The notes: generated by a model from the letters alone, not told the origin. A DNA stretch of 64,000 nt from Bdellovibrio bacteriovorus (GCF_001592735.1 NZ_LUKE01000004.1:1-64000); one strand, 5' to 3'. Shown: positions 17,779 through 37,837, counted from the stretch's first letter. Program-made: numbers and translations.

Positions 17779-19431
17779 TTACCGCATCGACTTCAAGTAG
17801 CCGACAATATCAATATCTTCCGGCGAAGCCACGCCCGCGCTTGGCAAGGGGCCTTTGAGTTCACTCAAAGAATAATCCATGCGCGCGTCGTATTTGCGCT
17901 CTGATTGGTAGCGAAGCCATTTTTCTGCTGCATACCAGGCACGCTTGTTGGCGTCGTCTTGGCAAGAAGCCAGTTCGCCTTCAACGCGAGCCCCCCAACG
18001 AAGTTCGATGCAATGATAAGGGTCAAAACTCATATCCCACAAACGTTGGCGACCCGCCTCTAAGTTCATCATCACGGTTCGGCCGGCGCTTGTTGTGTAA
18101 GAGAACGTACAAGCCTTCGCGCGTTCAGCGTAAACCACTAATAAATCATTAGCTAAGTTGCCGCCGTTGTACTTGATCGCAGGATCGCGTTGGTTATAGC
18201 GTTCAATATTTGATTTCGTGGTGGACAATAAATCTTGGAAGGCGACTTTCAAACGCGCATCACGCGACGGGGAGGAATAGTCTTCCCACTCTCCCGAAGT
18301 GCCATAAATATTTTCTGGCAAGCGAGCTGGGTGAGGTTTTTTATCAATCCCATTGCGTCGTGCAGCTTCCACGGCGTCCACACGGTCTTTTAAGCTGACG
18401 CAGATGTCGTCCGTCAATTGCGCCATATCGCTGAGTGGGTCGATGTGAACTTCGCCCTTCATCAATTTCATTCGAACATAGTCATAGAAGTTAACGTTTT
18501 GGCCACTGATAACAAACTTTCCTTTGCTCCAAGAACCGTTGGGATCGGGTTGAGATCCATAAAATTGCGTTGTTCCGTACAAGGGAATTTCAGAGTTTGA
18601 ACTCGCAATCAATTGGCCGCCATAATAATTGCCGGCGGCGTCCTTTTTCGCATTCACCATTTTTAAGGGTCGGAAGTTTTTAAATCCCGCACCTTGGCCG
18701 GGTTTGCTGCGCACGAATTTAGGAGTGAACATTCCGCGAGTTAAAGAATTATCGGGATGCGCATCTATATAAAAGATGCGTCCGTCATCCGCCACGCGAT
18801 AAACAATCGCCACGTGTCCGTTGGGATCATAGATCACGGTGCCGGGGCGAATGGCTTCTCGAGAAATTGCGGCCGGGTAAAAATCAGAGCTGAGAGATTC
18901 GTCATTTGTGCCCGGCATTCGATAAGAAGCAGAGAAGGTGTAATCTGGAATGGTGTTATTCAAGATATTCAAGGCATTTTGAAAAACAACTTTGCCGTTG
19001 GTAACACGTGGAAGCACATCATAGCGTTTGGTGACGTAATTGCCTGCACTGGAATACCGAACATCATTGGTGGGATTTGTGTCAGCGCTAGGAGCTGGCT
19101 TTGCTTTGACTTCGCTGATGACCGACATGGGGAGGCCGTTTTTCCAAGCGAAATAGCTGCGCAAGTAATAGGGCAAATCTGCACAATCGGCGAAGTATTT
19201 AAGCCCGGCTGGGTCTGATTTGTAATAGGGATTTGCGCTGCTGCGAAGGCAGTCGTCGACTTTGCCGCAGTTGCGTTTTTCTACGGCCATGCCAATGCTT
19301 GCGACGAACTCGCCGAATTGACGTTCATGACTTTCGGTCCAGGTGGGTTGCGTGATTTTCCAACTGGTGCTTTGGGCGTGAACACTGAGTGAAGCCAGTA
19401 CGACAAGCGAAAACGCACTGATAAATTTCAT
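17779..19431 (-). CDS. Secreted protein, possible papain-like (NlpC/P60-type) hydrolase
   Basis: A 550-residue protein with a clear signal peptide (residues 1-19, ending VHA-Q). Residues 81-88 hold a Cys-x-Asp pattern (ADCADLPYY, with C83). A GHVAIV strand with H206 follows, then YIDAHPDN (221-228). A Cys on a helix followed by GH-[VT]-A-I-V is the layout of NlpC/P60 and CHAP-type cysteine peptidases and amidases, so a role on peptidoglycan is possible. The C-terminal half (about 330-550) is unique to this protein in my reading. The ATG has AAGGAG eight bases upstream. Catalysis is inference. Confidence 0.55.
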   Translation of the reverse strand: MKFISAFSLVVLASLSVHAQSTSWKITQPTWTESHERQFGEFVASIGMAVEKRNCGKVDDCLRSSANPYYKSDPAGLKYFADCADLPYYLRSYFAWKNGLPMSVISEVKAKPAPSADTNPTNDVRYSSAGNYVTKRYDVLPRVTNGKVVFQNALNILNNTIPDYTFSASYRMPGTNDESLSSDFYPAAISREAIRPGTVIYDPNGHVAIVYRVADDGRIFYIDAHPDNSLTRGMFTPKFVRSKPGQGAGFKNFRPLKMVNAKKDAAGNYYGGQLIASSNSEIPLYGTTQFYGSQPDPNGSWSKGKFVISGQNVNFYDYVRMKLMKGEVHIDPLSDMAQLTDDICVSLKDRVDAVEAARRNGIDKKPHPARLPENIYGTSGEWEDYSSPSRDARLKVAFQDLLSTTKSNIERYNQRDPAIKYNGGNLANDLLVVYAERAKACTFSYTTSAGRTVMMNLEAGRQRLWDMSFDPYHCIELRWGARVEGELASCQDDANKRAWYAAEKWLRYQSERKYDARMDYSLSELKGPLPSAGVASPEDIDIVGYLKSMR

Positions 19432-19725: not shown

Positions 19726-20439
19726 ATGGGACGTATGATGAGTGAAACCTATGTGAATCGTACAAACAGCGATACATTTACTTCAGCGAAAATCCTTCGT
19801 GTTGCTTCTCCGTTTTCATCTCAATTCGGATTTACTATTTTAACTTTAATTGCTTATTTCGCGGTCTGGCGTTTTGCATCTGCGGATTCTTGGATTTCGC
19901 AAGCCTTCTTTGCTGAAGACCACTTGGGTGAGTGGTTGCAATTTGCTTTTTGCTTAGCGACGGGTGTCGTGGCCCTTAAAACTTTCCGGAGGGCTTCGCC
20001 GAAGTGGTTGTCGGCAGCGATTCTTTTGGGTGGCGTCGGTATGATCTTTATCGGTGGTGAAGAAATAAGTTGGGGACAGCGTCTATTTAACTTTCCGTCG
20101 TCTGAATTTTTCTTTTTAAGAAATTATCAAAACGAAACCAACTTGCACAATCTCTTGCCTTTAGAAAGCAATCTGATTCCGTATTATATTGCCGCCTTTG
20201 TGTTGGGTGTGGTTTTAAACGCCATTGGTTTTAAGTTAACTCCCTCGGGTCAAAAATGGCCGGTGGCAGATATGTTTATAAGCTCTTTAATTATGGCGGC
20301 ATTTTATTTCTTCTTGCCGATGTCTCAGCATATCTATTTCTACGAATACACCGAGCTTTGGATTTACGCTTCGATTTTCATTTATACAGTAAGAATTCGT
20401 AAAAATTTATTAGTGGAAAACAATAGGGGGGTCCTATGA
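19726..20439 (+). CDS. Multi-pass membrane protein of unknown function
   Basis: A 237-residue protein with about five to six membrane helices, starting around residue 34. Two conserved-looking loops stand out: GEEISWGQR (111-119) and NETNLHN (136-142). Acidic and His residues at membrane edges suggest an active or binding site, though no reaction is known to me. The start could be the ATG at 19726 or the ATG ATG pair at 19735-19740. It overlaps the next gene by four bases (ATGA), so it opens the pilin-like operon. A role in processing or anchoring the operon's surface structure is inference only. Confidence 0.65.
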   Translation: MGRMMSETYVNRTNSDTFTSAKILRVASPFSSQFGFTILTLIAYFAVWRFASADSWISQAFFAEDHLGEWLQFAFCLATGVVALKTFRRASPKWLSAAILLGGVGMIFIGGEEISWGQRLFNFPSSEFFFLRNYQNETNLHNLLPLESNLIPYYIAAFVLGVVLNAIGFKLTPSGQKWPVADMFISSLIMAAFYFFLPMSQHIYFYEYTELWIYASIFIYTVRIRKNLLVENNRGVL

Positions 20440-23400
20440 AACCATCTTTTATCGCCTTTGGTACGTTGATCACAGTATTAGTGACCTCCTTGACGGTCCA
20501 GGCTCAATGGGGACCTCCGCCGGATCCAAGTCCGTCGCCCAGTGCTTCGCCGTCGCCATCGGCGCCACCACCACCTCCGGAGTGTAATGCACGCTCATTT
20601 TGGGTGAATCCGGATGGCGCAAAGAGGGGCCAGAATTTTAATGTGCCTAAGACGGTGGCTGACTCCGGCCCCCTCAGTATGGACTGTTCAAGTTTTGAAG
20701 CAGAGGAGGGGAAGCGTTTAAGAGGAAGCGTCAGTGTGCGTTGTGAACGCGCTGGTAATAACGCTTATTGGAGCTCAGTTCAAAACAACTGTTCAACAGA
20801 AGAAGCGGTTCTGCAATGTCGGCCTGCGGTTTCTGTGGGTGTTTCAAAAAATGAATTGTTAAAAGCCTTCAATGAAGGTGGAACTTCAACGTCCGCTATT
20901 CGTGGAGAGTTGGTGGCGATTCCAAATGGGGATGCTGCTCAAAGTAATATCGCCAAAATTACGATGACCTGTAGAGCCGTGTATCCCTCTGACGATTCGC
21001 CAGCGAATTTAACAGCACAAGGGGTTTTCACTTCAAATTTGAGTGATTGTCGTGGCACGGAAGGAAGGGCTTGTTACTTAGATCCTTATAATGGTGTCAA
21101 AAGCAGAACCTATAGCGGGAACGAGTATGAGTTCAATGCGGATGGCAGCTATAAGCCATTAACCCGATATGGAAACTCTATTAAGCAGACCATTCTTTAC
21201 GTTTGGAATAAAGGAAACTCAACTCGTCAGTTGAATAATAATGACGTTCAATTCTTAACGCGCGCTAAGGTGGGAGGTTCCTATCCCGGCACCTATGTTG
21301 CCCGTGATGTTCATGGACTTGGTTCTTTCGAGCTTCAGGGCGTCGCGACGGAGGCGACAGCCTGTGACTTGCGTGTCTCAGGTGTTATTGGTGGTTATCA
21401 GGCCACTGTTCCGCCCTCCGCGCTTGTAGAAAATGACATGTTAGTTTTCACGGTCAATATGAAAGGCGGAACGGGTGTCGGTCTTGTTCCTCCGAAAATC
21501 ACTTACAGTGGGGGACCGAATCCGTTAACAGGGGTTTGGGAAAATCCGCCAGCTAACAGCACGGCCGTCATCACTGCGAATGTCGAAACAGGAGTCAGTA
21601 AAAATAAATTCAGCTGTCAATTAAAGGTCGATACTCGGGGTTCGACATCCACGGTGCGTCTGCGTCGCTTTGGGGATTGCGGATATTTTGATGCCCTTCG
21701 TTCGCATTTCTTCATGAATGCGGCCGGAACATCTTTTCAAAATCAGGGATTTTCTCCAGGCCTGACAATGCCGGGGATCAATGCTCAATACGGAACGACC
21801 ACTCCGGAAGTACCTTATGGCGGGGTGATGAATGCGGCAGCGTCCAGTGCCGGTGAAATCATCGTGGGTTCAGGAGGCAGTATCTTGTTGCCGCCATTAA
21901 ATAAACGTCTTTACTCAAAAGCTGTTATCGTTGCAAAACGTTTCCGCTCTGGCGGACAGGTTGAAGATCCGTTGTTTTGGGGTGTCATGGATTTAAATGA
22001 CTATTCGATCACTCGGATGAGTCAGGTTGATTCGTCGTTAAAACTGAATGATGACGACACCGTGGTATTTCAAGCTTTCTTGGCGGCGGTGCAGCCGAAT
22101 TCCAATTTCTCTCGGGACCTTCGCGGCACCGGAGAGGGGTTTGCGCTGTATTCATTTGCGCCCTCAACACGAGAAGGAAAACCTTTTGATAAGGTGATTC
22201 CGTTTACCAATGAATCTTGTATTCCGCTATTCCAGGCAAAACCGCCGTTACGCCCGGACGTGAAAAATCCTAACCCGGCTTTAACCGGGGTGACCCAGTG
22301 TTTGTATTCTCGTCCATATACGGTCGGCGACATCAAAAACGGTCGTGTGGATTTGACGTTGATGCACTTAGTGCCCATGCATGCGCATCATCAATTCCCG
22401 ACCGAACTTTTAAAAGCAAGCAGCCAGCCGGCCTGCGTGGCTAAAAATCCCACAGTGCAATCAGATTGTTGGGACGTTAAAGCAGCCAGCATGGGGGCCG
22501 CCGCAACCACGGATCCATTTGCGAGCCATGACCAGTGCCGTACGGTCACGACGACGTGGGTGACCCAAACTGCGACCTCAACGGACAGGGTCTGTCATCA
22601 GACGGGCGGGGGAAATAACTCTCGCACAGTATGTAACAATGTCACAAAGACTTCTTCGGCGAAAATTCCGGTGACCACCGTGACTTACAAACCAAGTTGC
22701 GCGGTTTTAGAAAGCAAAAGCGAATGTTCTGCGAACTTAGCGATTCGTTTTAGTGGTTACAATCAAATGATGATCGCAGGTTTGATGTGTGCGGCGAAAT
22801 ATAATAAGCCGGGCGATCAAGTGACCGCAACCCTCCAAGGCCGAGGAATTATTCCTTATACTCCGGCGGCAAATATGGGGGGATCTAATCCATTGCCGTA
22901 CACTTCTTATCCTCCGGCCTATGGCAGTGCCAAGGGCCTGGGTTGTATTCCATGCCGTTTCGGTACGGATGCGTTGGCCGCTGGCAGAAACCTAACAGAT
23001 AATGGAGAGACGATTCCACTTCCGGTGGACCAAGATTCAACATCGGCTCGTAAACCGATTTTCAGCTTCCGCAAAATGAAAGCACCGACAGAGTGCGTTC
23101 GTAATGTGAATTTCGAAGTTCGTTACTTCGGTTCGCAAGAGTGTAATGGCGTTAGCAATCCGGCCGGTCACTTCTGTTCGTCCTCGAACTTAGGTGGGCA
23201 GAGCTGCGGCGCGAACGATGGCCATGGGGGTGGTAACGTCGCCGCCCGCCTTTCAATCCCGGTATGCCCGAACTCAGGGTTTGAATTTGATAACGTATCG
23301 GTGTCGTGGTCTCCGCTTCTTTTAGATATCGGTGGTACGGGCATCCAAATCAGTCGTGATGCGTCCTATGCCTTGAAATTTGATATTCGCGGTGACGGCC

Positions 23401-23828
23401 GAAAACGTTTGGTCGACTGGCCGATCAATACCAACGAAGTGGCGTTCTTAGTGATGCCAAACAAAGATGGTAAAGTTGTATCCGGCAAAGAACTTTTTGG
23501 TGAATACCGTGCAAAAAATGGCTTTGATGCCTTATCTAAATTTGACAGCAACAAAGACCAGAAGATCGATAAACAGGATAAGGACTTTGATAAGTTAAGA
23601 CTGTGGTTTGATCGCAATCGTGACGGTGTTTACGATGAAGGTGAAGGCGAACTTTTAGCAGATCACGGAGTTGAAACTATTTACTTGCAACATCGTAAAA
23701 TCACGGATCGTGGAACAGACGGAAGAACTCTTTATTCTGTTTATTTCAACAATAAATTCCGTGAGTTTATGAACATCGCCGATTACTACTTCAACGAATA
23801 CGGCGTTGAAAAGAAAAGTAAAAAGTAG
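20436..23828 (+). CDS. Large secreted Cys-rich protein with C-terminal EF-hand-like repeats
   Basis: A 1130-residue exported protein. The signal peptide ends about residue 24 (VQAQ) and is followed by a Pro/Ser linker of repeated PSPS units. The middle is beta-rich with many cysteines. The C-terminus (about 955-1120) matches a module common in large secreted proteins: a FDIRGDG strand, ELFGEY, then two calcium loops, DSNKDQKIDKQD (1037-1048) and DRNRDGVYDEGE (1059-1070), with every EF-hand ligand position filled. It sits directly before three pilin-like genes, the position and size expected of a PilY1-like calcium-binding tip adhesin, though no PilY1 propeller was recognised. The ribosome site is GGGGGG, and the start overlaps the upstream gene. 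Confidence 0.75.
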   Translation: MKPSFIAFGTLITVLVTSLTVQAQWGPPPDPSPSPSASPSPSAPPPPPECNARSFWVNPDGAKRGQNFNVPKTVADSGPLSMDCSSFEAEEGKRLRGSVSVRCERAGNNAYWSSVQNNCSTEEAVLQCRPAVSVGVSKNELLKAFNEGGTSTSAIRGELVAIPNGDAAQSNIAKITMTCRAVYPSDDSPANLTAQGVFTSNLSDCRGTEGRACYLDPYNGVKSRTYSGNEYEFNADGSYKPLTRYGNSIKQTILYVWNKGNSTRQLNNNDVQFLTRAKVGGSYPGTYVARDVHGLGSFELQGVATEATACDLRVSGVIGGYQATVPPSALVENDMLVFTVNMKGGTGVGLVPPKITYSGGPNPLTGVWENPPANSTAVITANVETGVSKNKFSCQLKVDTRGSTSTVRLRRFGDCGYFDALRSHFFMNAAGTSFQNQGFSPGLTMPGINAQYGTTTPEVPYGGVMNAAASSAGEIIVGSGGSILLPPLNKRLYSKAVIVAKRFRSGGQVEDPLFWGVMDLNDYSITRMSQVDSSLKLNDDDTVVFQAFLAAVQPNSNFSRDLRGTGEGFALYSFAPSTREGKPFDKVIPFTNESCIPLFQAKPPLRPDVKNPNPALTGVTQCLYSRPYTVGDIKNGRVDLTLMHLVPMHAHHQFPTELLKASSQPACVAKNPTVQSDCWDVKAASMGAAATTDPFASHDQCRTVTTTWVTQTATSTDRVCHQTGGGNNSRTVCNNVTKTSSAKIPVTTVTYKPSCAVLESKSECSANLAIRFSGYNQMMIAGLMCAAKYNKPGDQVTATLQGRGIIPYTPAANMGGSNPLPYTSYPPAYGSAKGLGCIPCRFGTDALAAGRNLTDNGETIPLPVDQDSTSARKPIFSFRKMKAPTECVRNVNFEVRYFGSQECNGVSNPAGHFCSSSNLGGQSCGANDGHGGGNVAARLSIPVCPNSGFEFDNVSVSWSPLLLDIGGTGIQISRDASYALKFDIRGDGRKRLVDWPINTNEVAFLVMPNKDGKVVSGKELFGEYRAKNGFDALSKFDSNKDQKIDKQDKDFDKLRLWFDRNRDGVYDEGEGELLADHGVETIYLQHRKITDRGTDGRTLYSVYFNNKFREFMNIADYYFNEYGVEKKSKK

Positions 23829-23837
23829 GAACTGTCC

Positions 23838-25469
23838 ATGGCACGTATAAGAACCAGCTCTGGCTTTACGATCACCGAGTTGCTCGTTGCGACGGGGCTG
23901 GCCTCTGCCTTTTTCTTGATAGGAGCTTCGGTGATCCAGCAGCTCTTTCAATTTCAAAAAGACGTGAATACACGTTTGATGGATAGTTTTTCTATCACTA
24001 ATTTTCATCGCAGTTTGAATCAAGATCTCGAGGGCAGTTATTGGCATCGTTTCGGTGCTTTTTCCTGCGCTTCTTCGAATCGCTTGATGGAAACGATGGG
24101 GACTTCCGAGGTAAATCTTAATAGTAGCGGTGGTTTTCTTGAATTTGTGACCGCGGACTATTCAAGCACGATTGGTAACGTCCCCAATACCACGGAATTG
24201 ACTGTAGCCAGTATGCGCAATTTGGATGTGGGCAATTACGTTTTATTAAGTCTGGCGGCGGATCCTTCCGTGGTGTCTTTATTCCGGGTTCGAAGTGTCG
24301 CGCGTGACACCGGTCGTATTAATTTAGATACGACATCATTGTCGGTCGCGGGTTCAAATTGCAACTTTGCTTTGCCTTCGCGACCGTTAACAGATTTTTT
24401 CGGTGCTTCGGCAAGTTCTAACGCTCTTTTAACCCGAATTAAAATTGTTCAGTATCGAATTACTGGCGGTTCCTTGACCCGAACAGCGCTGCCGGGCGGG
24501 TCGGCCGAAGAACTTATGGATAAAATGAACTCCATGAATGTCCGATCGACTTGGGCGGCCAGTGCGGATGGCACGGCGGCCAAAATATTTGGTCAGATGA
24601 AGTTTCAAGTGGTCTTAGACCACAATCAATCCACGTTGATGGGCTCTAAGCAAACGTCGCGCAAGCAAGAAAACGTGACGGCCCAATACGCTCTTAATTC
24701 ATTTCAATATTTGAATCGAAATTTCACGTCGGGTTCAGCGCCGATCACGGCGACCTTCCCCAGTTGCTCGGTGGGCGTCAATTTTCGACCAGGGTCTTTG
24801 AAGGTCAGCTCGGCCCATTACAGTGACACCGTTCCAGTCAGTCTTGCCGGCTATGTTTCTACGGACAAGGTGAAGGGGGCCACCATTGACGTCAATTTCT
24901 CGCCGCGGACCGGAGCCCAAATAGATTGTTTTAAGTATGATCCCGATTCTTCGGATTTACCTTACCAAGTCACGGGAATAGGGATGAGTCAGACTATCAG
25001 CCTTGCGCAGACGGCGACGGGCTTTGATATTTATACTTGTGCGGTGAAGGGGATTGTCGACGTCGTGGCCGCCATGACCTACTTTGCCACGGATATAAAT
25101 CAGACCAAAACGATTCCTTGCTCGGTAGAGTCGATTGAAGCTCCGACGCGATATATATTTATCGGCGCCGCCCCTAAATGTGATCGGGAACTGGCTTCCT
25201 ATGATATGGGGAGCGAGATGTACAATACGATTTCAACGGGCAGCACCGTTTCTATCGGTAAATTCGGGGTGGATATGGACTCTAGCTGCCAGTGGCAAGG
25301 GCAGGCGGATGCCTCGGCCACGGGGCTCGCAGATAACTGCGATTGGGGAAGTCATGCCGGGTTGGAGTTGCGTCGCATCTACTTACGACCTTACAAACAA
25401 CAGGTTTATGCTGCGGATAAAGTAACACCGCTGTTTAGTTCTCAAGGTGCTTATATTAACTGCGATTAG
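23838..25469 (+). CDS. Type IV pilin-like protein, PilW-like
   Basis: A 543-residue protein with a class III signal: a short basic leader, then SGFTITELLVATGL with cleavage after G9, Phe at +1 and Glu at +5. A single hydrophobic helix follows to about residue 35. The remaining 500 residues are a large, beta-rich soluble domain with several cysteines, far bigger than a standard pilin. PilW/GspJ-type minor pilins start filament assembly. It lies nine bases after the large secreted protein and is followed by PilX-like and PilV-like genes. The subunit type is by position and size and so is tentative. Confidence 0.75.
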   Translation: MARIRTSSGFTITELLVATGLASAFFLIGASVIQQLFQFQKDVNTRLMDSFSITNFHRSLNQDLEGSYWHRFGAFSCASSNRLMETMGTSEVNLNSSGGFLEFVTADYSSTIGNVPNTTELTVASMRNLDVGNYVLLSLAADPSVVSLFRVRSVARDTGRINLDTTSLSVAGSNCNFALPSRPLTDFFGASASSNALLTRIKIVQYRITGGSLTRTALPGGSAEELMDKMNSMNVRSTWAASADGTAAKIFGQMKFQVVLDHNQSTLMGSKQTSRKQENVTAQYALNSFQYLNRNFTSGSAPITATFPSCSVGVNFRPGSLKVSSAHYSDTVPVSLAGYVSTDKVKGATIDVNFSPRTGAQIDCFKYDPDSSDLPYQVTGIGMSQTISLAQTATGFDIYTCAVKGIVDVVAAMTYFATDINQTKTIPCSVESIEAPTRYIFIGAAPKCDRELASYDMGSEMYNTISTGSTVSIGKFGVDMDSSCQWQGQADASATGLADNCDWGSHAGLELRRIYLRPYKQQVYAADKVTPLFSSQGAYINCD

Positions 25470-25481
25470 AAAAGGATTTTC

Positions 25482-27122
25482 ATGCGCGTTTTGAATCGTA
25501 AAGGAAGCTCGATTCCTTTAGTCATGATCATTAGTGCTTTGGTTTTCATCTTTAGTTACGTGATTTTCAACCTTTTACAATCACGTCGCCAAGGAACAGA
25601 AGATGATTTGCGCGTCTTGCAAGCGAAGATGTTGGCCGCCGATATCGTCGAGCTTGGAAAATACATGCTTCTTTATGAGCGCGTGGTTTATGTCAATGAT
25701 ATCTTAAACGTCGATAACTCTCGCATAGCCACTCGCCGAGAAATGTTAAATCAATCTTACGGATCACTTGTGGCGGCCAACTCGTTTATGATGAATGCGT
25801 GTGGGGGTTATGATGCAAATGCCGTGGAAATCGGTCCTTTGCGCGCGGACAACTCCCCGGTGTTTTGCCCGTTTTATCTTCGCAATCCGTTGATGGACGG
25901 AAAAATGTTTGAAGATATGATGTTGCAAATGTGGTCCATTGGGGGGCAGGTGGGTGAATTGGTGATGCGCGGGGGAGTGCTGGCCACACAGAACGCGACA
26001 CGGTCCCAAATTTTCACTAAAAATGGGGCGGGGTCTTATTCTTTGACCATTGATCTTGATTCTGCGATCCGCAATCCCAACAATCAATTCATTCGGCTGC
26101 ATTTAAATCAAAATATCGTAGAAAAAATGCGTCAAGATGGATTCTCCGCCAAGCTTATTTTTACTCTTTATGGTCCTTCAACAGGATTTAGAACTTTAAC
26201 CAACGAACGCTATGTGAACGTGCAAGCCGACGTGAGCTTTGGTACGAGCTTAAATAAAAAAAATGCGAGTGTTTCGGAAACAGCGATCTTGTATTCAACC
26301 ACGGTGAAAGATTTTGCCCTTTTTATGATGTATCCGGAAGACAGCGCAGGCCAACCCACGACACTTTTTTCACGCGCCGTGGAGCTTAATAGCACCAGTC
26401 AAATCAATGGACGCGTTTTATTTAATGGCGATATTGATAACTCCCTGGAAAGCCTTCCGATTTTTAATGAAGTCGTTATTATTTCTGGATCCGTGAATAC
26501 TGCCGGATATACTTTTGCCCGTGCCCGTGAGCTGATGTCCCAAAAGTTTCGCAAAGGTATCGTGATGGGTTTTCCCATTAAACTTCTGATCAATGATGGC
26601 ACTTGCGTTTCAGGCCTTCCTACGTCCAACGACTCTTCCATGTATTGTGTGGAAAAAGGCACCGGGTTGCCGTACAACCTTACTAAGTACATTGATAATA
26701 TGGGAAACATCTGTTCGAAACTGCCGGTGAACTTTTCGGGCGGCGAATTCACTTTTGATACCTCGACCGTCATTGATCCGGTGATTCGTGAGCAATGTAA
26801 AGGTTCTGCGCCCGGCAAGGTGTGGTTGTCTGGAGGCGTGCGGAATGTTTCCGTGGCCGGAAGCCATGCTTATATCCTAAGTCCAGTGAAAAACTTAATA
26901 ATGTCCGCCGGTGGAAGTTTGTATGGAACTGTGATGGGCGGCCACATCCGTGGAACCAACGTCAAAATCTACAGCTTAGGAGCTTTACGTCCTGGCCTTC
27001 CGGGCATTGCCAGCAGTACGGATCTTGGGGCAATATCAGGAGAGAGCGGACGAATCATGGCCGGAATTGGTGTTCCCCTGATCAATGTGGCTTTAATCAA
27101 GGAAGCAAAAATTGGTGAATAG
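25482..27122 (+). CDS. PilX/GspK-like pseudopilin lacking Glu5
   Basis: A 546-residue protein with an N-terminal RKGSSIPLVMIISAL segment. This is a pilin-type cleavage site after G8 and a hydrophobic helix, but position +5 is Leu, not Glu. Loss of Glu5 is the hallmark of tip-capping GspK/PilX-type pseudopilins, which need no salt bridge to a subunit above. The large C-terminal domain contains several Cys residues and ends in a Gly/Ser-rich beta-repeat-like region. The ATG has AAGGA eight bases upstream. It overlaps the next gene by 11 bases. It is probably the filament tip. Confidence 0.68.
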   Translation: MRVLNRKGSSIPLVMIISALVFIFSYVIFNLLQSRRQGTEDDLRVLQAKMLAADIVELGKYMLLYERVVYVNDILNVDNSRIATRREMLNQSYGSLVAANSFMMNACGGYDANAVEIGPLRADNSPVFCPFYLRNPLMDGKMFEDMMLQMWSIGGQVGELVMRGGVLATQNATRSQIFTKNGAGSYSLTIDLDSAIRNPNNQFIRLHLNQNIVEKMRQDGFSAKLIFTLYGPSTGFRTLTNERYVNVQADVSFGTSLNKKNASVSETAILYSTTVKDFALFMMYPEDSAGQPTTLFSRAVELNSTSQINGRVLFNGDIDNSLESLPIFNEVVIISGSVNTAGYTFARARELMSQKFRKGIVMGFPIKLLINDGTCVSGLPTSNDSSMYCVEKGTGLPYNLTKYIDNMGNICSKLPVNFSGGEFTFDTSTVIDPVIREQCKGSAPGKVWLSGGVRNVSVAGSHAYILSPVKNLIMSAGGSLYGTVMGGHIRGTNVKIYSLGALRPGLPGIASSTDLGAISGESGRIMAGIGVPLINVALIKEAKIGE

Positions 27123-27651
27123 ACGTTCATTAGGTCAAATACTGCGAAACAGAAAAGGGGTGACGGTTGTTGAGACGGTCGTCGCGGCGGCTATTTTGGC
27201 AATATTGGTTTTTGCGATCATGTCCTTAAAACAAATCGTCTTTAAAATGAGCCAAGGTGTTATTCAAAGATCTTCCAATGCCCGGATTATCTTTGCTATT
27301 CAAGAAGAGCTTGTCAAAGAGATGGACTCATTGCCATTTAGGAGCAACGCGGCCTTTATCACCGGTGCCAGTTTTAACCAAGCTGCCTATGAGGCCAGTT
27401 TTGACGACACCAGCGCGCAGCAAAGCTGCTACAATAAAGAAGGAATTGAAATTCCCGTTACGAACGAACCTGTTTGCGAATTTAAAGTTAGTTACTATCG
27501 CGTGCAAGAAGTCGATCGCAACTATACCGGCGATCTTGCCAAGATTCCGCTAAGCCGTCTTGTCATGCGTTTAGCATATATCGATAAAAATACCAAAACA
27601 CCTCGCACCCTTTATCTAAGTCGTCTTAAGGCCCATGTCATCAGATACTAA
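27112..27651 (+). CDS. Type IV pilin-like protein, PilV/GspI-like
   Basis: A 179-residue minor pilin. The leader ends RNRKG (G16) and the mature end VTVVETVVAAAIL has Glu at +5. A small soluble domain with two cysteines (about C104 and C117 of the long form) follows. It starts with TTG (27112) or GTG (27115), inside the end of the upstream gene and after a GGAAG ribosome site. With PilW-like and PilX-like neighbours it completes a three-member initiation complex. Confidence 0.75.
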   Translation: MVNRRSLGQILRNRKGVTVVETVVAAAILAILVFAIMSLKQIVFKMSQGVIQRSSNARIIFAIQEELVKEMDSLPFRSNAAFITGASFNQAAYEASFDDTSAQQSCYNKEGIEIPVTNEPVCEFKVSYYRVQEVDRNYTGDLAKIPLSRLVMRLAYIDKNTKTPRTLYLSRLKAHVIRY

Positions 27652-29149
27652 ACGCGATTCGCAGTTTCATGTCTTATTGGGACTATTCATATTTGCGGGT
27701 CTCATTTTACGAGTGATAGGTCTTTTTTATTTTCCGACGGGAATGGAAGGTGATGAGGTTCATGTCGTTTATTGGGGACGGCAGTGGATTCAATCCAAGC
27801 AATGGCTTTTGATTGATGTCGGTGATTTGCCAGCGTGGGAAACTCCTTCGGCATATATTTTTGGCGGCCTGGATTTAGTGGGGATCAATCCTCGATGGGG
27901 TGCTGTCGCGATTTCTTTTTTAGAACTCGCGATGTGTTATCTGTGGACGGCTCGTCGCAGTGATAAACAGACGGCATTGATGGCGACAGCCTTTCTTTCT
28001 TTGATGCCTTGGCATTTTTTCTTTTCGTATGTTTTAGGTCCTTGCGTGGCGGGCTTTTGGACATCTCTTTATTTGCTAGATATCAAAAATCCCTTGGGCC
28101 GCGTTCTTGGCAATATGGGCGGATTGCTTTATTACGTTTCTTATCGCGTTTTGTTAGTTTGGGGAGGACTCGTAAACCTCTATCGCCGTCAGTGGAAGAC
28201 TTTGGGCATCGACATCTTATCGGGGCTGGTGACTTTAGCTGTTCTGGCGATGTTTGGTGGCAATCACTTAAAAGGTTTTTTTGCCAAAGGTTCTTATCTG
28301 GTGAGCACGCGTGAACCGATCGAATGGGTGTATCACTATTTGAATTCTTTTATCTTGTGGTGGATGCCACCTCTTCAGGTCTGGTGGGAGCAACTGAGTG
28401 AATATTCAGCCGGAGACGTCGGATTTGGATTTGCTCACTCCCTGGGATTTCAAACCCCGTTGTCCCTAGGGACCAGTCTGTTTTTTGGATGGGGTTTGTA
28501 TATATCTTACAAGGACAAAAAGTACCGGGATCTTTTGGGGCTTTTCGTTTTATCTTTGGTATGTGTCGGTTTCGGTCCAAGCTTTGTTCATTTTCCATTT
28601 ATTCTTCCGGTGGTGGCTTTTTTGGCCGCCATCGCCGCGTCGCGGGCTCTGCAAAAAAATAAGCGGAATAGAGTTTTGGTTATAATGTCTTTAGTTTTAT
28701 CCGTGGCATCCTTAGTCGTGGTTATTTCAAATCTGGGCCACAGCGATAAGTGGCGTACATTCACCTCGAAAACCGAGTTGATTCCATCAGCTGTGCGGGC
28801 GGAGATAGGAACAACATCTTTCGTCTGGACGGCGGGAGCAGACTTGGCTCGCGCGACGCTGGCGGCCGATCGTGCCGATCTTTCGGTCTTTGGATTTTCC
28901 ACAAGTTTTTTAAATTGGGTGAATGAAATTACACGCGAGGCATACGCCAAAAAAACACCCTGGGTGTTTATTCAAAACACACCCGCGCCGGTGCACCCGC
29001 GGCCTAAAGTGATTCAAGAAATGCAGGTATTCAAGGAAGATTTTGACAGCCGCATAAAATTCTTTGAAGCCAACGTCTCCGTGAGTTCTAAAAAGACGAT
29101 TGTGGTGGACGGTGTTGAAATAGGAATTCTGTATGAAATTGTTTATTAA
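27635..29149 (+). CDS. GT-C type integral membrane glycosyltransferase (GT39/PMT-like)
   Basis: A 504-residue protein with about ten membrane helices and a C-terminal soluble domain (about 380-504). The first loop carries GMEGDEVHVV with D40-E41, the acidic pair typical of the first periplasmic loop in GT-C enzymes such as ArnT and PMT. Such enzymes transfer sugars from polyprenyl-phosphate carriers. It overlaps the PilV-like gene by 17 bases and the methyltransferase gene by 17, so glycosylation of the pilin-like or secreted operon products is an attractive inference. The acceptor is not shown by sequence. Confidence 0.65.
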   Translation: MSSDTKRDSQFHVLLGLFIFAGLILRVIGLFYFPTGMEGDEVHVVYWGRQWIQSKQWLLIDVGDLPAWETPSAYIFGGLDLVGINPRWGAVAISFLELAMCYLWTARRSDKQTALMATAFLSLMPWHFFFSYVLGPCVAGFWTSLYLLDIKNPLGRVLGNMGGLLYYVSYRVLLVWGGLVNLYRRQWKTLGIDILSGLVTLAVLAMFGGNHLKGFFAKGSYLVSTREPIEWVYHYLNSFILWWMPPLQVWWEQLSEYSAGDVGFGFAHSLGFQTPLSLGTSLFFGWGLYISYKDKKYRDLLGLFVLSLVCVGFGPSFVHFPFILPVVAFLAAIAASRALQKNKRNRVLVIMSLVLSVASLVVVISNLGHSDKWRTFTSKTELIPSAVRAEIGTTSFVWTAGADLARATLAADRADLSVFGFSTSFLNWVNEITREAYAKKTPWVFIQNTPAPVHPRPKVIQEMQVFKEDFDSRIKFFEANVSVSSKKTIVVDGVEIGILYEIVY

Positions 29150-29843
29150 ACAAAATTCCCCATTTTCTGATTTGGTTGAATTATCAAGCCCGCAAGTGCG
29201 CCGCCTTCTTGATTTGCAATTTCAAAGCCGCTGTTTAACCGAAAAAAAAATCTTTAAAAACCTGGATTTGACTCAGCTCAGGGTTTTAGATTTCGGGGCG
29301 GGAATGCAGGATTTTCGTCAGCGTCATCAGGTTGTCAAATACACATCATTAGATCCTTATCTCCCTGCGGATTGGAAGTCTTTGTCAGACATTCCAGAAG
29401 GTGAAAAATTTGATTTGATTGTCGCCAGTGAAGTCTTTGAACATTTAGAAAATCCCACAGTCACTTTAAGAGAACTTTTCAAGATACTGCAGCCTGGGGG
29501 AAGGATTTATCTTACAACCCCTTTTATGGCGCGTGAACACGGAGCCCCAGCGGATTTTCAACGGTGGACTCAAAGTGGATTAGAAAAACTTTTAACCGCA
29601 TCAGGATTTAAGATCGAGCAAAGTCATCGACGCGGAAACCTAGTGACGGTCCTAAGTTCGTTTTTAAATTTTTCGTTATTTAAACTTTTACGTTCACCTG
29701 CATTTATTTTGGGATTGGTCTTGTTGCCGTTGGTGCTGATTTTACTTTTGTTTGCTCAAGCCAGTTTTTTAATTAAAACTTCAAGTTCTGTTTATTTGGG
29801 ATTATCCGTTTTGGCCTCTAAAGTCCCATCAAAAGATTTGTAA
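29133..29843 (+). CDS. SAM-dependent methyltransferase with C-terminal membrane helices
   Basis: A 236-residue protein. Motif I is VLDFGAG (51-57), and FDLIVASEVFEHLENP is the post-I region with the usual EVFEHL signature of class I methyltransferases. The C-terminal 50 residues hold one or two hydrophobic helices, which would tether it to the inner membrane. It is the last gene of the pilin-like operon and overlaps the GT-C gene. Its 3' end runs 52 bases into the convergent methyltransferase gene. The substrate is unknown; a lipid-linked sugar or a polyprenyl compound would fit. Confidence 0.7.
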   Translation: MKLFIKQNSPFSDLVELSSPQVRRLLDLQFQSRCLTEKKIFKNLDLTQLRVLDFGAGMQDFRQRHQVVKYTSLDPYLPADWKSLSDIPEGEKFDLIVASEVFEHLENPTVTLRELFKILQPGGRIYLTTPFMAREHGAPADFQRWTQSGLEKLLTASGFKIEQSHRRGNLVTVLSSFLNFSLFKLLRSPAFILGLVLLPLVLILLLFAQASFLIKTSSSVYLGLSVLASKVPSKDL

Positions 29844-30529
29844 AACTCGATCCATAAAGACTGCGCAACATAATCGTTCAAGATGGCGGGCGTTGAGAGC
29901 TCGATTTTTTTGACCTGCTTTTGCAAGAAGACGGGCATAAAGGGGTAAGCCCAATCCTTTTTCAAAACCTGATATCGCGGATAGATATTTTTTAACAGGT
30001 CCTTGGCGATTTTTGCGGTGAATGCATTTTCTTCAGGTTCTAAATTCATCCATTTTCTTCCTAAAGATGTACCAAATAAAAAGCGCACCAAGGGGTTTTC
30101 ACGATTAGGTTCCCAAAAAAAACCTCGCCCCAGAACCGAAAGCCGCGTGGCTATCAGACGTAAAGTCTTGTCTAAATCCAAAATACAGTGATGCAAGATC
30201 CCCATGCCGACAACGGCGTCAAAGACGGGTCCCTCTTTTTCCAAAAACTCTAAGACATCGGCTTGCACGGTCACCAAGGCGGGATGGGAGGCACAGCGTT
30301 CTTGGGTCGCCTTCAGCATGATTTCAGAGCGATCCAGGGCGGTCACCCGGTGGCCCGCCTTTAAAAGGGCATGGGTTAAATCGCCATGTCCACAGCCCAG
30401 CTCTAAGACGTGAGAATTTGGTTTTAAATGCGTAAGAATCTGATGGATGCGTTGTTGGGCGCGAAAGACAGTGCTGGAATTTTCAGACCAGACCTGACTA
30501 TGACCTTTTTCATCTTTGACCGAGATCAT
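29792..30529 (-). CDS. Class I SAM-dependent methyltransferase
   Basis: A 245-residue soluble methyltransferase with motif I LELGCGHGD (42-50) and the typical VTALDRS acidic strand end. GMGILHH is the post-motif region. The last gene of the minus-strand glycan operon, it overlaps the epimerase-GT2 gene by 20 bases. It probably methylates a sugar or lipid intermediate made by the upstream genes. It is unrelated in detail to the convergent methyltransferase it overlaps by 52 bases. Confidence 0.72.
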   Translation of the reverse strand: MISVKDEKGHSQVWSENSSTVFRAQQRIHQILTHLKPNSHVLELGCGHGDLTHALLKAGHRVTALDRSEIMLKATQERCASHPALVTVQADVLEFLEKEGPVFDAVVGMGILHHCILDLDKTLRLIATRLSVLGRGFFWEPNRENPLVRFLFGTSLGRKWMNLEPEENAFTAKIAKDLLKNIYPRYQVLKKDWAYPFMPVFLQKQVKKIELSTPAILNDYVAQSLWIEFYKSFDGTLEAKTDNPK

Positions 30530-32414
30530 GTTCGCCCGCGGGGAATCGCACCAGGATTTGTTTTTGAATCAACTCTTCGGTGGTGTATTCCGGATACTGG
30601 AAGTTTTTTAAATAAAGCAAATTTACCAAGGCCACTAAGAGGGCCAAGCCTAAGAAAATATAAGGAATCACGAAAAACAAAGAGTCTTCAAAAAATAAAA
30701 ACCCCGCCAGGCCGCCTAATAAGTAAAAAAATGCGATGAAATTAGGCGTAGAAAATAAAAACTTTAGCGACCACATAATCAATTTGCGATTGCTGTTGGT
30801 GCTAAAACCAAAGGCGCGATTAGGACGACGATACGGAACTAAAGCGGTTTTGTAAGCGGGGAAGGCGCGTAAGGTTCGCCATAGCTTGATTTTTGTACGG
30901 AAAGAAACAATTTGTTTCGCAGCCGCGCGAGAAATTAAACCGAAATCTCCGCAATCAAGAGGAATATCAATGCGTGAAACGATATTCCACAAACGGTAAA
31001 AGGCTTTGCATTTAAACGAAAACCAAAAGCCTTCCTCGCGAGAAACGCGTTTGCCTAAGCAAAGATCAAAACCTTGTTCCCATTTTTCAATAAACTGAGG
31101 AATCAGTTCCGGAGGATCCTGCAGGTCCCCATCCATCAACACCACCGCGTCGCCAGTGGCGATATCTAAGCCGTGCATAAATATGGACTGAGAGCCAAAG
31201 TTGCGCGTGTGTTTAGCTAAAACCCAACGGGCATCTTTCAGCGCATGTTCTTTAAGGCTTTCGTAGGCACCATCGGGACTGACGTCATCAATCACGATAA
31301 ACTCAAAATCATATTTCAGGTTTTCAAACACCACGCGCAAGCGTTCAAACAAGATCGGAATGCTTTGTAAGTCCATATAGCAGGGCGCGATCACGGAAAT
31401 CTTTTTGCGAGGTAAGAAGAATTCGTTATTAAGTAAAAACCGATGTTCTTGGTAATATTCTAACGTTTGCTTTAAACCCGCCGCAAACGAGATTTTGGCT
31501 TGCCATCCGAAGCGTTTGAAAGTTTTTTCTGTAGATCCCACCCAGGTTTTTAGATCCCAAGATTTAGCGACTCCAGAACTCCAGCGCAGATTCTTAAAAT
31601 CAAATTCTTTCGCCAAAATATCGGCGACGTTTTTGAGTGAAGTTTGTTCGCCCGTGCAAACATTGTAGGCCTCTCCATAATCTTGGGGCTGAATTCCTAA
31701 GAGGCCATCAAGGATCATTTCAAGGGCATCATAAATATGAACGAAATCCCGGGAAGTTTCAGGATCACTTAAAGTCAGTGGGTGGTTTTCTAAGATCGAA
31801 GAACAAATATGCGGAATGAGTTTTCGGGGATGTTCCCCGGGGCCATAAATAGAAAACAAGCGCAAAGTCATGGCCGGCACATTGAGAGTTTTTCCGTAAT
31901 AAGAAATCAGATTGTGACACTGGATTTTGGCCAAAGAATAAAGACTGTTGGCATGCGGGGTTTGGTCTTCTTTAGCATAATTGCAGTTCTGCCCGTATTC
32001 ACTGGACGTGCCCGTGTGAATGAAGGCCTTGATCCCATTTTTTCGGGCTTCGCTTAATAAAGTTTCAAGCTGCTGCACTTGTTTAAAGATTTCGCCCGAC
32101 TCAACTTGCCAAGAATAAGCGCCATAAGTCGCCGTGTGCACAATCATGGTCACGCCATGAAAAGACCTAGCGACGCTGGCAGGTTGATCCAAATCACACA
32201 CCACTAAATTTTTGCGACCAAAAGAATTCACCCGGACGTTGGAGGTGGTTTTACCCGAACTTAAGCCCACGCAAGGGACGTGGGCAACGGAAAGCAGGTT
32301 TAATAATTGCGCGCCGATGAAGCCATGGGCTCCCGTAATCATGACGTGCTCGTCTTTCAAAGCGCGTGCTTTATTGAGCAATGATTCGGGATAGGGGTGA
32401 AAATTCTGTATCAT
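30510..32414 (-). CDS. Fusion of NAD-dependent sugar epimerase/dehydratase and GT2 glycosyltransferase
   Basis: A 634-residue two-enzyme fusion. Residues 20-325 are an extended SDR: GAHGFIG (28-34) binds NAD, and Y159-x3-K163 with SSEYG (137-141) form the active site. Residues about 338-555 are a DPM1-like GT-A domain with ISVIAPCYMD, IDD (377-379) and DGDLQDPPE (430-438), the last being the hallmark of polyprenyl-phosphate glycosyltransferases. Two membrane helices follow (about 555-610). The architecture suggests making a nucleotide sugar and loading it onto a polyprenyl carrier in one polypeptide. It lies seven bases after the transketolase C-subunit gene. The sugar is unknown. Confidence 0.85.
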   Translation of the reverse strand: MIQNFHPYPESLLNKARALKDEHVMITGAHGFIGAQLLNLLSVAHVPCVGLSSGKTTSNVRVNSFGRKNLVVCDLDQPASVARSFHGVTMIVHTATYGAYSWQVESGEIFKQVQQLETLLSEARKNGIKAFIHTGTSSEYGQNCNYAKEDQTPHANSLYSLAKIQCHNLISYYGKTLNVPAMTLRLFSIYGPGEHPRKLIPHICSSILENHPLTLSDPETSRDFVHIYDALEMILDGLLGIQPQDYGEAYNVCTGEQTSLKNVADILAKEFDFKNLRWSSGVAKSWDLKTWVGSTEKTFKRFGWQAKISFAAGLKQTLEYYQEHRFLLNNEFFLPRKKISVIAPCYMDLQSIPILFERLRVVFENLKYDFEFIVIDDVSPDGAYESLKEHALKDARWVLAKHTRNFGSQSIFMHGLDIATGDAVVLMDGDLQDPPELIPQFIEKWEQGFDLCLGKRVSREEGFWFSFKCKAFYRLWNIVSRIDIPLDCGDFGLISRAAAKQIVSFRTKIKLWRTLRAFPAYKTALVPYRRPNRAFGFSTNSNRKLIMWSLKFLFSTPNFIAFFYLLGGLAGFLFFEDSLFFVIPYIFLGLALLVALVNLLYLKNFQYPEYTTEELIQKQILVRFPAGEHDLGQR

Positions 32415-32421
32415 CAGACCC

Positions 32422-33291
32422 TTATGCTTTTATTGAATTGACGTTCCTTCTTATATTTTGACTCTCAAAGCCCTGACTGGCCAGTAAATAGTTGCGACTG
32501 CCGTTGGTGCTTGATTGAGAGATGGCGTGGATATGAATTCCAGCTCGTGGCCCTTCCAAAACAGAGGCTATTTTTTGAGACAAGCTGCCTTCGATTTGGT
32601 GCTCTTCAAAAAACACGATCCGTTGGGATTTCTCAAAATGAGATTGAATGGTTTTGACGTCCAAGGGCCATGTGTTGATGCCAAAGATCTGCACGTCAGA
32701 ATCATCTTTAAGAACCGGTAGGACAAGATCAAGCAAAGGTCCATAAGTCACCACGGTGACGCGTTCACCACCCCCGGTATTTGAAAGGGCACAAAACTCA
32801 TCGGTTGTTGGTAAATCATTATTAGTCAGTCGGATATAGTGCGGACCTTTTAGCGGCGAAACTTTCTTAAGAAGTGACGTGAGTTCTTGGTCGCGACGGG
32901 GAATCCATGAAGTCCAATGTCGCCATAGGCTGACCAGTCCTAAATCATCAAGGCTGTGATGGGAAGATCCCATGATGCCGTAACCAAAGCCACCGCCATT
33001 ACCGATCACGCGCAAACGATCCGTGGGGTCAAAATACATGCGTAAGCCTTCGGCGGCTCTCCACAAAGTGAAAGAACTAATGCCGTAAATAAAAACCTCA
33101 AAACCCTGTGAGCAAAGTCCTTTAGCAAGTAAAGCCGCATTTTGTTCGGCCACGCCGACATTGATAACGTGATCAGGATGTAAAGCAATCAGATCTAAAG
33201 CTTCGGGGTAGCCCAAATCACAAAGCAATAAAACACAGTGAGGATTGTGGCGCAAATGTTCGCGCATCCAAGAAAAAAAATATTTCTTCAT
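32422..33291 (-). CDS. Transketolase, C-terminal subunit
   Basis: A 289-residue protein equal to the pyrimidine-binding and C-terminal domains of transketolase. The catalytic Glu is in VGVAEQN (E49), and FGYGIMGSSHHSLDD matches the donor-site loop. It needs the N-terminal subunit encoded just upstream, with which it overlaps four bases (ATGA). Two-gene transketolases occur in polysaccharide and secondary-metabolite clusters. Here it stands with an epimerase-GT2 fusion, so a two-carbon transfer to or from a sugar precursor is likely (inference), rather than housekeeping pentose phosphate work. Confidence 0.85.
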   Translation of the reverse strand: MKKYFFSWMREHLRHNPHCVLLLCDLGYPEALDLIALHPDHVINVGVAEQNAALLAKGLCSQGFEVFIYGISSFTLWRAAEGLRMYFDPTDRLRVIGNGGGFGYGIMGSSHHSLDDLGLVSLWRHWTSWIPRRDQELTSLLKKVSPLKGPHYIRLTNNDLPTTDEFCALSNTGGGERVTVVTYGPLLDLVLPVLKDDSDVQIFGINTWPLDVKTIQSHFEKSQRIVFFEEHQIEGSLSQKIASVLEGPRAGIHIHAISQSSTNGSRNYLLASQGFESQNIRRNVNSIKA

Positions 33292-34040
33292 GGCTTCACC
33301 ACGGGAGGGTTTTTATAGTGAGCCTCCACTGGAGTGAGACGGTCTTCAAAACCAAAATTTTTACGGGTATCAAAAATATAAAAATGGGGTTTGGGGCCGG
33401 AAGCTTTAGAGAAATGAATGCTTTGCACGTCGTGTCCATTTTGGCGAGACATGTCCCAGCCCATAGAATCTAAACTCACCTCAAGATGGTGAAGCGAATA
33501 AATATTCGAGATGCTCCCTAAAGCTTGGGTTTTGTTATGATCAAAAAGAACATGTAAGTTTGAAAGCTGATTTTGCGCGGCAAAGTGCAACGCCTCCCAG
33601 GTCGAGCCTTCATTGAGATCTCCTTCAGAAATTAAAACATACACTTGGCTTTGCTCACCGCGGATTTTTTTTGCCAGAGCCACACCAGAACCTAGGCCGA
33701 CACCACAACCTAAACTGCCCGAAGCAAATCCCCACCATGGATGAGGTGTCGGAACCGTCGACGGCGGATGAGCACCAAAAATACTACCGTCGCGGCAACT
33801 TCCCGCAAGTTCGGCGTCCGTCATTAAGCCTTTCTGGTTTAGGATCAAATAAAGCAGACTTGCCGCGTGGCCCTTAGAAAGAATGAAGTGATCGTCTTGT
33901 TTAAGAGGTCCCCAAAAGAGGGCCGTCAGAATATCCAATGAGGACAAACATGACCCTAAATGGCCCAGATTGCGTTCCGTATGATACTGAAGAAGCTTCT
34001 GAGTGAGCTCGCTGCGAATGGCGGAGAGGCTTGTAGTCAT
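33288..34040 (-). CDS. Transketolase, N-terminal subunit
   Basis: A 250-residue thiamine-diphosphate-binding half of transketolase. GHLGS (26-30) and LSKGHAA (54-60) are the substrate and cofactor histidine motifs. The metal-binding motif, normally GDG, reads SEG within SEGDLNEG (138-145), giving Glu in place of the Mg ligand Asp, with DHN (167-169) as the second ligand pair. The start at 34040 is preferred; an in-frame ATG at 34079 would add 13 residues. Neither has a convincing ribosome site. It heads a four-gene minus-strand operon and is divergent from ald. Confidence 0.83.
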   Translation of the reverse strand: MTTSLSAIRSELTQKLLQYHTERNLGHLGSCLSSLDILTALFWGPLKQDDHFILSKGHAASLLYLILNQKGLMTDAELAGSCRDGSIFGAHPPSTVPTPHPWWGFASGSLGCGVGLGSGVALAKKIRGEQSQVYVLISEGDLNEGSTWEALHFAAQNQLSNLHVLFDHNKTQALGSISNIYSLHHLEVSLDSMGWDMSRQNGHDVQSIHFSKASGPKPHFYIFDTRKNFGFEDRLTPVEAHYKNPPVVKP

Positions 34041-34233
34041 ACACAAATGGTAGGGCGCAACAGTGCATAATAAAATCATTAATTATTTTTACGCACCGCC
34101 TCAGGGGTGAGGTTTTTCTCCTCGAGTATGAACTCCAGTCCTCTTGCTTTTTATTACGAATCTGGCATAGTTCCATGCGCATACCAAATTGACTAAAAAC
34201 AAAGCGTTCGCAAGAGCCCTTTAGGAGCTATAT

Positions 34234-37117: not shown

Positions 37118-37837
37118 TCACTCCAGCCAAATATGTCCCCAATCTTCGGTGCGCAACAAGGGGGTGCGAAATTTCTTGAGGCGAGCGATCGTCTGCGGGT
37201 GGGGATGAGAATAGCGCCGCCATCGAGCCGAGCTGATTGAAATCTTCAAGTTCGCCAAGCGATTTAAAAGCATTTCGGACGTACTAGTGTTGCTGCCATG
37301 ATGGCCTAAAACTAAAACCTGGGCGGAGGCAACCCAAGGAGTTTTGCTCCATAGTTCTTCCAACTTTTTCGTCGAGTCGCCGGGCATAAGAATATTCTTA
37401 AAAAGATAAACTCTGCTTGAGTCATTTGAGTTTTTCGAAAGGGGCGGGGTCCATGATGATATCGAAAGGGGTTCTGTTGAGCAGCTTCGAAATTTTTTTA
37501 AGATCTTTACTTTGCGAGGGGAGGCCGGACCCCGCGGTGCAAAGCGAATGCAGATGTCAGGAAGAGTTTTTATAATTTTACTTTGAGCCAGGGCGCCGAT
37601 GTGATCCCAGTCCCAATGACTTAAAAGCACTTCGTTCGCCCTGTGGGCACAAAGTTTTTTTAAACTTTCCCAAGGAAAGAACTCGCCACCCATATCAAAA
37701 TGAAAACAGGTGTTTTGTTCCGGCATGGTAATCCATTGGCCTTGGCCCACATTCCAAACCACAATACCTCGAGCCAATGTGGCTGGGGCGATTCGGCTGG
37801 CACTAAATAATATGACAAACATGACCAGGGTTTTCAT
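37118..37837 (-). CDS. ComEC-type metallo-beta-lactamase domain protein
   Basis: A 239-residue protein with a signal-like N-terminus ([13 protein letters not shown]). The MBL metal motif is HWDWDH (74-79), the HxDxDH variant common in ComEC C-domains. Further ComEC features are VWNVGQGQ near the start, LMPGDS, and [11 protein letters not shown]. It starts inside the stop codon of the upstream comEC N-half (ATGA), so the two are translated together and together make up ComEC. It probably processes or degrades the non-transported DNA strand in the periplasm. A longer frame to 37912 is less likely. Confidence 0.8.

Follow-up and report, generated by a model that had tools for sequence, protein, structure and literature searches.

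The window analyzed here is a 64,000-nucleotide stretch of Bdellovibrio bacteriovorus DNA, and seven ORFs on its plus strand, at 19726–29843, form one tight operon, with successive junctions of −4, +9, +12, −11, −17 and −17 bases. The preliminary description had reported seven packed coding regions with overlaps or gaps of no more than 12 bases, encoding a membrane protein, a 1130-residue exported protein, three pilin-type proteins, a GT-C glycosyltransferase and a membrane-anchored methyltransferase; the range of junctions (−17 to +12 bases) and the gene types agree with that account. The first ORF, P1 (20436 being the start of its neighbor; P1 itself spans 19726–20439), encodes a multi-pass membrane protein of 237 aa with weak TgpA_N similarity. 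One distant genome has a P1 homologue next to the cluster (L191:12695-13351; 33% identity, E 9e-19); at locus L042 no homologue stands beside it. P2 (20436–23828) is an exported protein of 1130 aa with a Cys-rich body and a C-terminal domain related to the self-processing module (SPM) of FrpC. It is followed by three pilin-like genes, P3 (23838–25469), P4 (25482–27122) and P5 (27112–27651), by the GT-C-like membrane glycosyltransferase P6 (27635–29149) and by P7 (29133–29843), a SAM methyltransferase (Methyltransf_23) with a C-terminal TM segment. The conserved block also takes in four convergent genes on the minus strand at 29792–34079. A promoter scan gave fewer sites than were found in shuffled sequences. 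Upstream of the operon, a 550-aa ORF on the minus strand (17779–19431) has no Pfam or NCBIfam match, and farther away, at 4120–10904 on the same strand, TamB-like (1325 aa) and BamA/TamA-like (935 aa) neighbors constitute a TAM-type pair.

The three pilin-like proteins are distinguished by their leaders. P3, a large PilW-like minor pilin of 543 aa (SSG/FTITE), and P5, a PilV/GspI-like minor pilin of 179 aa (RKG/VTVVE), both have Glu5, so that two co-encoded pilins combine a class III leader with this residue. P4, a large PilX/GspK-like minor pilin of 546 aa, lacks Glu5 (RKG/SSIPL) and qualifies as a PilX/GspK-like pilin at the sequence level, its fold being weakly supported. This distribution of Glu5 is the one first noticed in the preliminary description. 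P5 is translated from a TTG, an uncertain start, and the true start may lie downstream. It matches N_methyl with E 5e-4, slightly below the curated cut-off, and GspI with 13.9 bits against a cut-off of 44.35, while P3 and P4 match no Gsp model; none of the three reaches a curated Gsp cut-off. With only three pilin-like ORFs in the operon, no FimU/GspH-like pilin is found there.

The structure model of P4 (pLDDT 55, weak) suggests a long helix with a beta-rich head, and its best PDB match is the pilin ComZ (6qvi; Foldseek E 2e-4, VIA Z 9.0, low TM-score). VIA matches of P4 to ice-binding beta-helices (Z 7.7–8.9) were discarded, as this range is common for unrelated models. The ComZ match, together with a ComEC-like Competence-domain ORF at 37834–38739, raises the question of a DNA-uptake pilus tip similar to that of Thermus. 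We consider such a competence function improbable, since the P4 model is poor and its TM-score low, the ComEC-like ORF lies outside the conserved block, and the phenotypes of the related cassettes in strain HD100, described below, are predatory.

Behind its signal peptide, P2 has a linker rich in Pro, Ser and Ala (84% of residues 25–49). All of its 28 cysteines precede residue 945, upstream of the last domain. The protein has no match in Pfam or NCBIfam, the PilY1 domain PF05567 included, and the only match among PDB sequences is the FrpC self-processing module (6sjw and 6sjx), with E 6e-12 against 6sjw for the single sequence and E 7e-19 for a five-sequence profile. Homology of P2 to PilY1 was therefore rejected on the outcome of these Pfam, NCBIfam and PDB sequence searches, and as judged from them the likeness is one of size and position only. 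Thus, of the earlier proposal, the pairing of minor pilins with a large exported protein stands, whereas the PilY1-like nature of P2 gives way to an FrpC-type SPM. The structure model of P2 (pLDDT 37.6) is too poor for fold assignment. An RGD near residue 985 was set aside as an adhesion motif, as it sits within the SPM.

The SPM domain of P2 covers residues ~958–1100 (about 23307–23735 in the window). The FrpC module folds upon binding calcium, cleaves itself between Asp414 and Pro415 and joins the freed Asp to a Lys (PMC7078468). By alignment, the equivalent pair in P2 is Ser959–Pro960 (codons at 23310–23315), and the Asp-Pro pair is thus absent. Serine occupies the scissile position in all 43 short pilin-linked SPMs and in all nine large-type ones. 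The 58 distinct domains from Bdellovibrionales have Ser there in 53 cases and Glu in one, with four unassigned; Asp is found in none of the Bdellovibrionales copies alignable there. In other bacteria, Asp is present at this position in 39 of 76 SPM domains; a contig scan yielded mostly RTX-type SPMs of such bacteria, which were used solely as an outgroup. Two EF-hand-like loops of P2 are intact, at the sites matching FrpC 499–511 and 521–532, and the sites matching FrpC 419–424 and 462–474 appear degenerate, so that the full set of four calcium sites is not predicted. P2 contains no GGxGxD nonapeptide repeats and its signal peptide is of the Sec type, which does not fit an RTX exoprotein. Given the lost scissile Asp and the two kept and two degenerate sites, we read the SPM of P2 as a structural, probably calcium-stabilized scaffold and not as a cutter.

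Serine can support acyl-shift chemistry, and Ser959–Pro960, along with W995/W1057, is invariant in nine of nine large-type SPM domains. The domain might then still be reactive through Ser959, a calcium-triggered acyl shift or cleavage linking the body of P2 covalently to a target. However, the published mechanism forms an anhydride via the Asp side chain (PMC7078468), two of the calcium sites are degenerate, and Ser or Thr at the scissile position is common in other bacteria too, which makes this chemistry very improbable, more so than the competence function. We retain the scaffold reading of the SPM.

Four relatives, namely G003, G014, G038 (Pseudobdellovibrionaceae SKYG79) and G029, carry P2, P3, P4 and P5 side by side as a set. 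Farther out in the phylum, three genomes have it as well (L191, L193, L195), while a fourth set, at a contig edge, is partial (L194) and a fifth has its genes rearranged (L192); the distant P2 orthologues with P3–P5 neighbors belong to G095, G146, G194 and G329, and a partial case to G281. Because the set recurs both in relatives and in distant genomes, the linkage of P2 to P5 is more than chance. A search of other genomes for the cluster had been proposed at the outset, with homologues standing mostly apart from pilin-like genes as the result that would count against a pilin-linked device; the homologues of P2 do sit beside pilins.

Nearly all genomes of the genus also carry a short SPM protein of ~400 aa, in one to three copies and usually two. 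The short SPM genes adjoin a PilW-like gene, as well as PilV- and PilX-like genes wherever the fetched sequence extends far enough, and the usual order is X-V-W-SPM. A PilW-like neighbor was found for 61 of the 77 listed Bdellovibrionales SPM rows and for none of the 79 rows from other bacteria (duplicate rows included). Every listed row of the CGGYxSP class has such a neighbor, which for L167 was seen in the wider locus L196. A second class of Bdellovibrionales SPM proteins, of about 400–680 aa and present at six loci (L056, L057, L054, L059, L211, L212), consists for the most part of apparent lipoproteins, besides other exported proteins, with no pilin neighbors and no scissile Asp. In G018 (L058:8366-10243), a single protein starts as a type IV pilin with Glu5, contains a short run of collagen-like Gly-X-Y repeats and ends in an SPM.

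When the large and short sets are compared, the SPM profiles align with E 5.5e-24, the PilW-like proteins align over the N-terminal helix only (E 4.4e-8), and the PilX-like proteins reach 56% probability (E 1e-4). Beyond the SPM of P2 and the N-terminal helix of P3, similarity is barely detectable or absent. The window cluster thus shares the four-protein operon of the Bd2209-2212 type, with PilX-, PilV- and PilW-like proteins and an SPM protein, and not full-length homology of all four proteins. The P2 cluster is no isolated case but the large variant of a set that is spread through Bdellovibrionota and has short versions in HD100.

Bdellovibrio needs pili for prey entry. In genome G006, the first short set (L208) encodes proteins of 995, 153, 328 and 414 aa, matching the published lengths of Bd2212, Bd2211, Bd2210 and Bd2209. 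The second (L209) encodes proteins of 325, 162 and 384 aa and a 924-aa ORF (901 aa as published; the start differs), and its lengths match those of Bd2724, Bd2725, Bd2723 and Bd2726 (PMC12034629). On the basis of these protein lengths, the two G006 sets match Bd2209-2212 and Bd2723-2726 of HD100. Each of these operons has been predicted to form a four-protein complex (ipTM 0.852 and 0.837, respectively), both are expressed in attack phase, and mutants of Bd2210, Bd2211, Bd2212 and Bd2723 lose predation (PMC12034629). The Bd2210::tn mutant shows reduced attachment (Duncan et al., PMC6561027). The terms "minor pilin," "PilY1" and "calcium" are all absent from the text of PMC12034629. We infer that the HD100 short sets are SPM-type minor-pilin tip complexes. 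Two operons previously known only as predation-required predicted complexes would thereby gain an identity, as minor-pilin sets with an SPM protein. The SPM protein would hold the position of PilY1 in them, a proposed use of the SPM fold beyond RTX proteins.

Neither a short SPM protein nor a short PilW is encoded in the genome that contains the window (100% complete, 9 contigs), and the P2–P5 cluster is its only SPM/minor-pilin set. At the gpmA site (L206:11089-13092, contig C1), the flanks are conserved, the amidohydrolase gene and gpmA lie 12 bases apart, and the Bd2723-2726 set is cleanly absent. The cation-efflux site (L207, contig C3) is otherwise syntenic, with mostly signaling-type genes in place of the Bd2209-2212 set. 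The replacing stretch (L207:9333-15724) encodes a 1127-aa membrane-anchored protein and has apparent CheR, CheB and response-regulator genes. Across the genus, the short sets number 0, 1 and 1 in the three members with a large set, and the mean of the other 21 members is near 2 (permutation p 0.012 for large-set versus short-set count, with genomes that are not independent and with G003 and G014 as fragmented assemblies). These counts are only suggestive of a large set replacing short ones. G008, of the same genus and 96% complete, has neither a short nor a large set, a further reason for caution.

The same genome encodes a type IVa pilus machine. A pilB-pilT-pilC-pilS-pilR cluster was located at G000:C2:345001-365000 through a T2SSE family search and gene order; the family scan covered the ATPase only, and the other gene names, here and in the secretion operon described next, were read from the sequence. 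The PilB-PilT-PilC machine therefore co-occurs with the cluster in the host genome, which for pilB and pilC answers one of the checks suggested initially. None of 81 Bdellovibrionales genomes yielded the PilY1 domain PF05567, in a search that matched all five positive-control genomes. By this domain search, the recognized form of PilY1 appears to be missing from Bdellovibrionales as sampled.

A type II secretion system (T2SS) operon is present as well (L173). It is conceivable that P3, P4 and P5 form a GspJ/K/I-like pseudopilin tip on this system with P2 as its cargo, since GspI/J/K and PilV/W/X are related, P5 has its marginal GspI match, and P2 carries a signal peptide. Nevertheless, this arrangement is unlikely, if less so than a competence pilus. 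The T2SS operon has pseudopilin-like genes of its own, no match of P3–P5 attains the Gsp thresholds, and the impaired attachment seen on mutation of an HD100 cassette is a pilus-like phenotype. We therefore continue with a type IV pilus as the assembly to which P2–P5 would belong.

In seven genomes P6 comes immediately after P5, and in the window the two genes overlap. D40 and E69 are invariant in the P6 family, one of seven homologues of which matches PMT_2 (E 2.7e-6). The four convergent genes, all on the minus strand, comprise a second SAM methyltransferase (29792–30529) that travels with the conserved block, a 634-aa fusion of an NDP-sugar dehydratase/epimerase to a polyprenyl-phosphate GT2 close to GtrB and ArnC (30510–32414; 5ekp, E 4e-32; ArnC, E 4e-25), and the C-terminal (32422–33291) and N-terminal (33288–34079) subunits of a split transketolase, the latter matching the split-chain transketolase 6yak with E 1.5e-24. 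These genes are 54–64% identical and adjacent in G003 and G014, and parts of the block recur beside distant clusters. GtrB/ArnC enzymes load sugars on polyprenyl phosphate, and a PMT/ArnT-type GT-C protein such as P6 would use such a donor. Modifications of this sugar could come from the split transketolase pair and the two methyltransferases. That the pilins or P2 are glycosylated is plausible, and the linked sugar modification first suspected from the operon extends to a gene set that travels with it.

The sugar genes may instead act in making LPS or a surface polysaccharide and be linked to the pilus genes by position only. Modification of LPS or O-antigen is another task of ArnC/GtrB-type GT2 and GT-C proteins, other polysaccharide-type genes occur at L192, and the fetched stretches of two large clusters (L044, L045) contain no dehydratase or transketolase genes. 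However, the position of P6 immediately after P5 is kept across genomes, and the block is intact in G003 and G014 despite their differing flanks. We regard this explanation as a serious contender, somewhat less probable than not, and take the large tip complex to be probably glycosylated.

What the sequence shows in the operon are three co-encoded pilin-like proteins and an exported protein whose last domain is homologous to the FrpC SPM. We propose that they probably form the tip of a type IV pilus, as a priming complex built on minor pilins, most likely driven by the PilB/PilT/PilC machine, with P2 docked through its SPM and the set plausibly used for prey attachment; we infer the tip location, the calcium binding, the glycan target and the machine. 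P3, P4 and P5 would assemble in the inner membrane as a cap. P2 would cross by Sec and fold with disulfides and probably calcium, and its SPM end would attach to this cap in the way that the conserved C-terminal domain of PilY1 docks elsewhere. Its N-terminal body would face outward and bind a surface, probably that of prey. The GT2 domain would load a modified sugar onto a polyprenyl carrier, and P6 would pass it on at the outer side of the inner membrane, the acceptor most likely being the pilins or the Pro/Ser-rich linker of P2. In the window species, the large cluster may do the job of the two missing short cassettes. Points against this reading are the poor model of P2, the weak one of P4 with its low TM-score, the lack of a FimU/GspH-like pilin in the operon, the scant similarity of large and short sets, and G008 with neither.

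More tentatively, and with somewhat less than even confidence, it is possible that across Bdellovibrionota PilY1 has been replaced by a silenced-SPM tip protein, that the short sets are the device by which Bdellovibrio pili attach to prey, and that the window species has swapped both for one large glycosylated set. This species would be a natural case of a genome that keeps a larger glycan-linked set and has lost the two short ones, and the swap is genetically testable.

Among known systems, ComZ of Thermus thermophilus (6qvi) resembles P4 in that the model suggests a large pilin with a beta-rich head; P4 shows only 9–13% identity to it, a low TM-score and a different operon. The SPM of FrpC/ApxIVA (6sjw, 6sjx) is a homologous 140-residue domain with two EF-hand-like loops and paired Trp residues, whereas P2 has Ser for the scissile Asp, a signal peptide and a pilin operon context, and no RTX repeats. 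FimU-PilV-PilW-PilX-PilY1 operons are likewise tight minor pilin operons with one large exported protein and a PilX-like protein without Glu5. In contrast to them, the window cluster has an SPM instead of the PilY1 beta-propeller and PilY1 calcium motif, has no FimU, and encodes much larger pilins. Compared with Bd2209-2212 and Bd2723-2726 of Bdellovibrio bacteriovorus HD100, the window cluster has the order SPM-W-X-V instead of X-V-W-SPM, an SPM protein of 1130 aa instead of ~400 aa, an X protein of 546 aa instead of 900–1000 aa, and attached sugar genes, of which the HD100 sets have none. It shares with them three pilin-like proteins and an SPM protein, the same lineage, and Ser at the scissile position.
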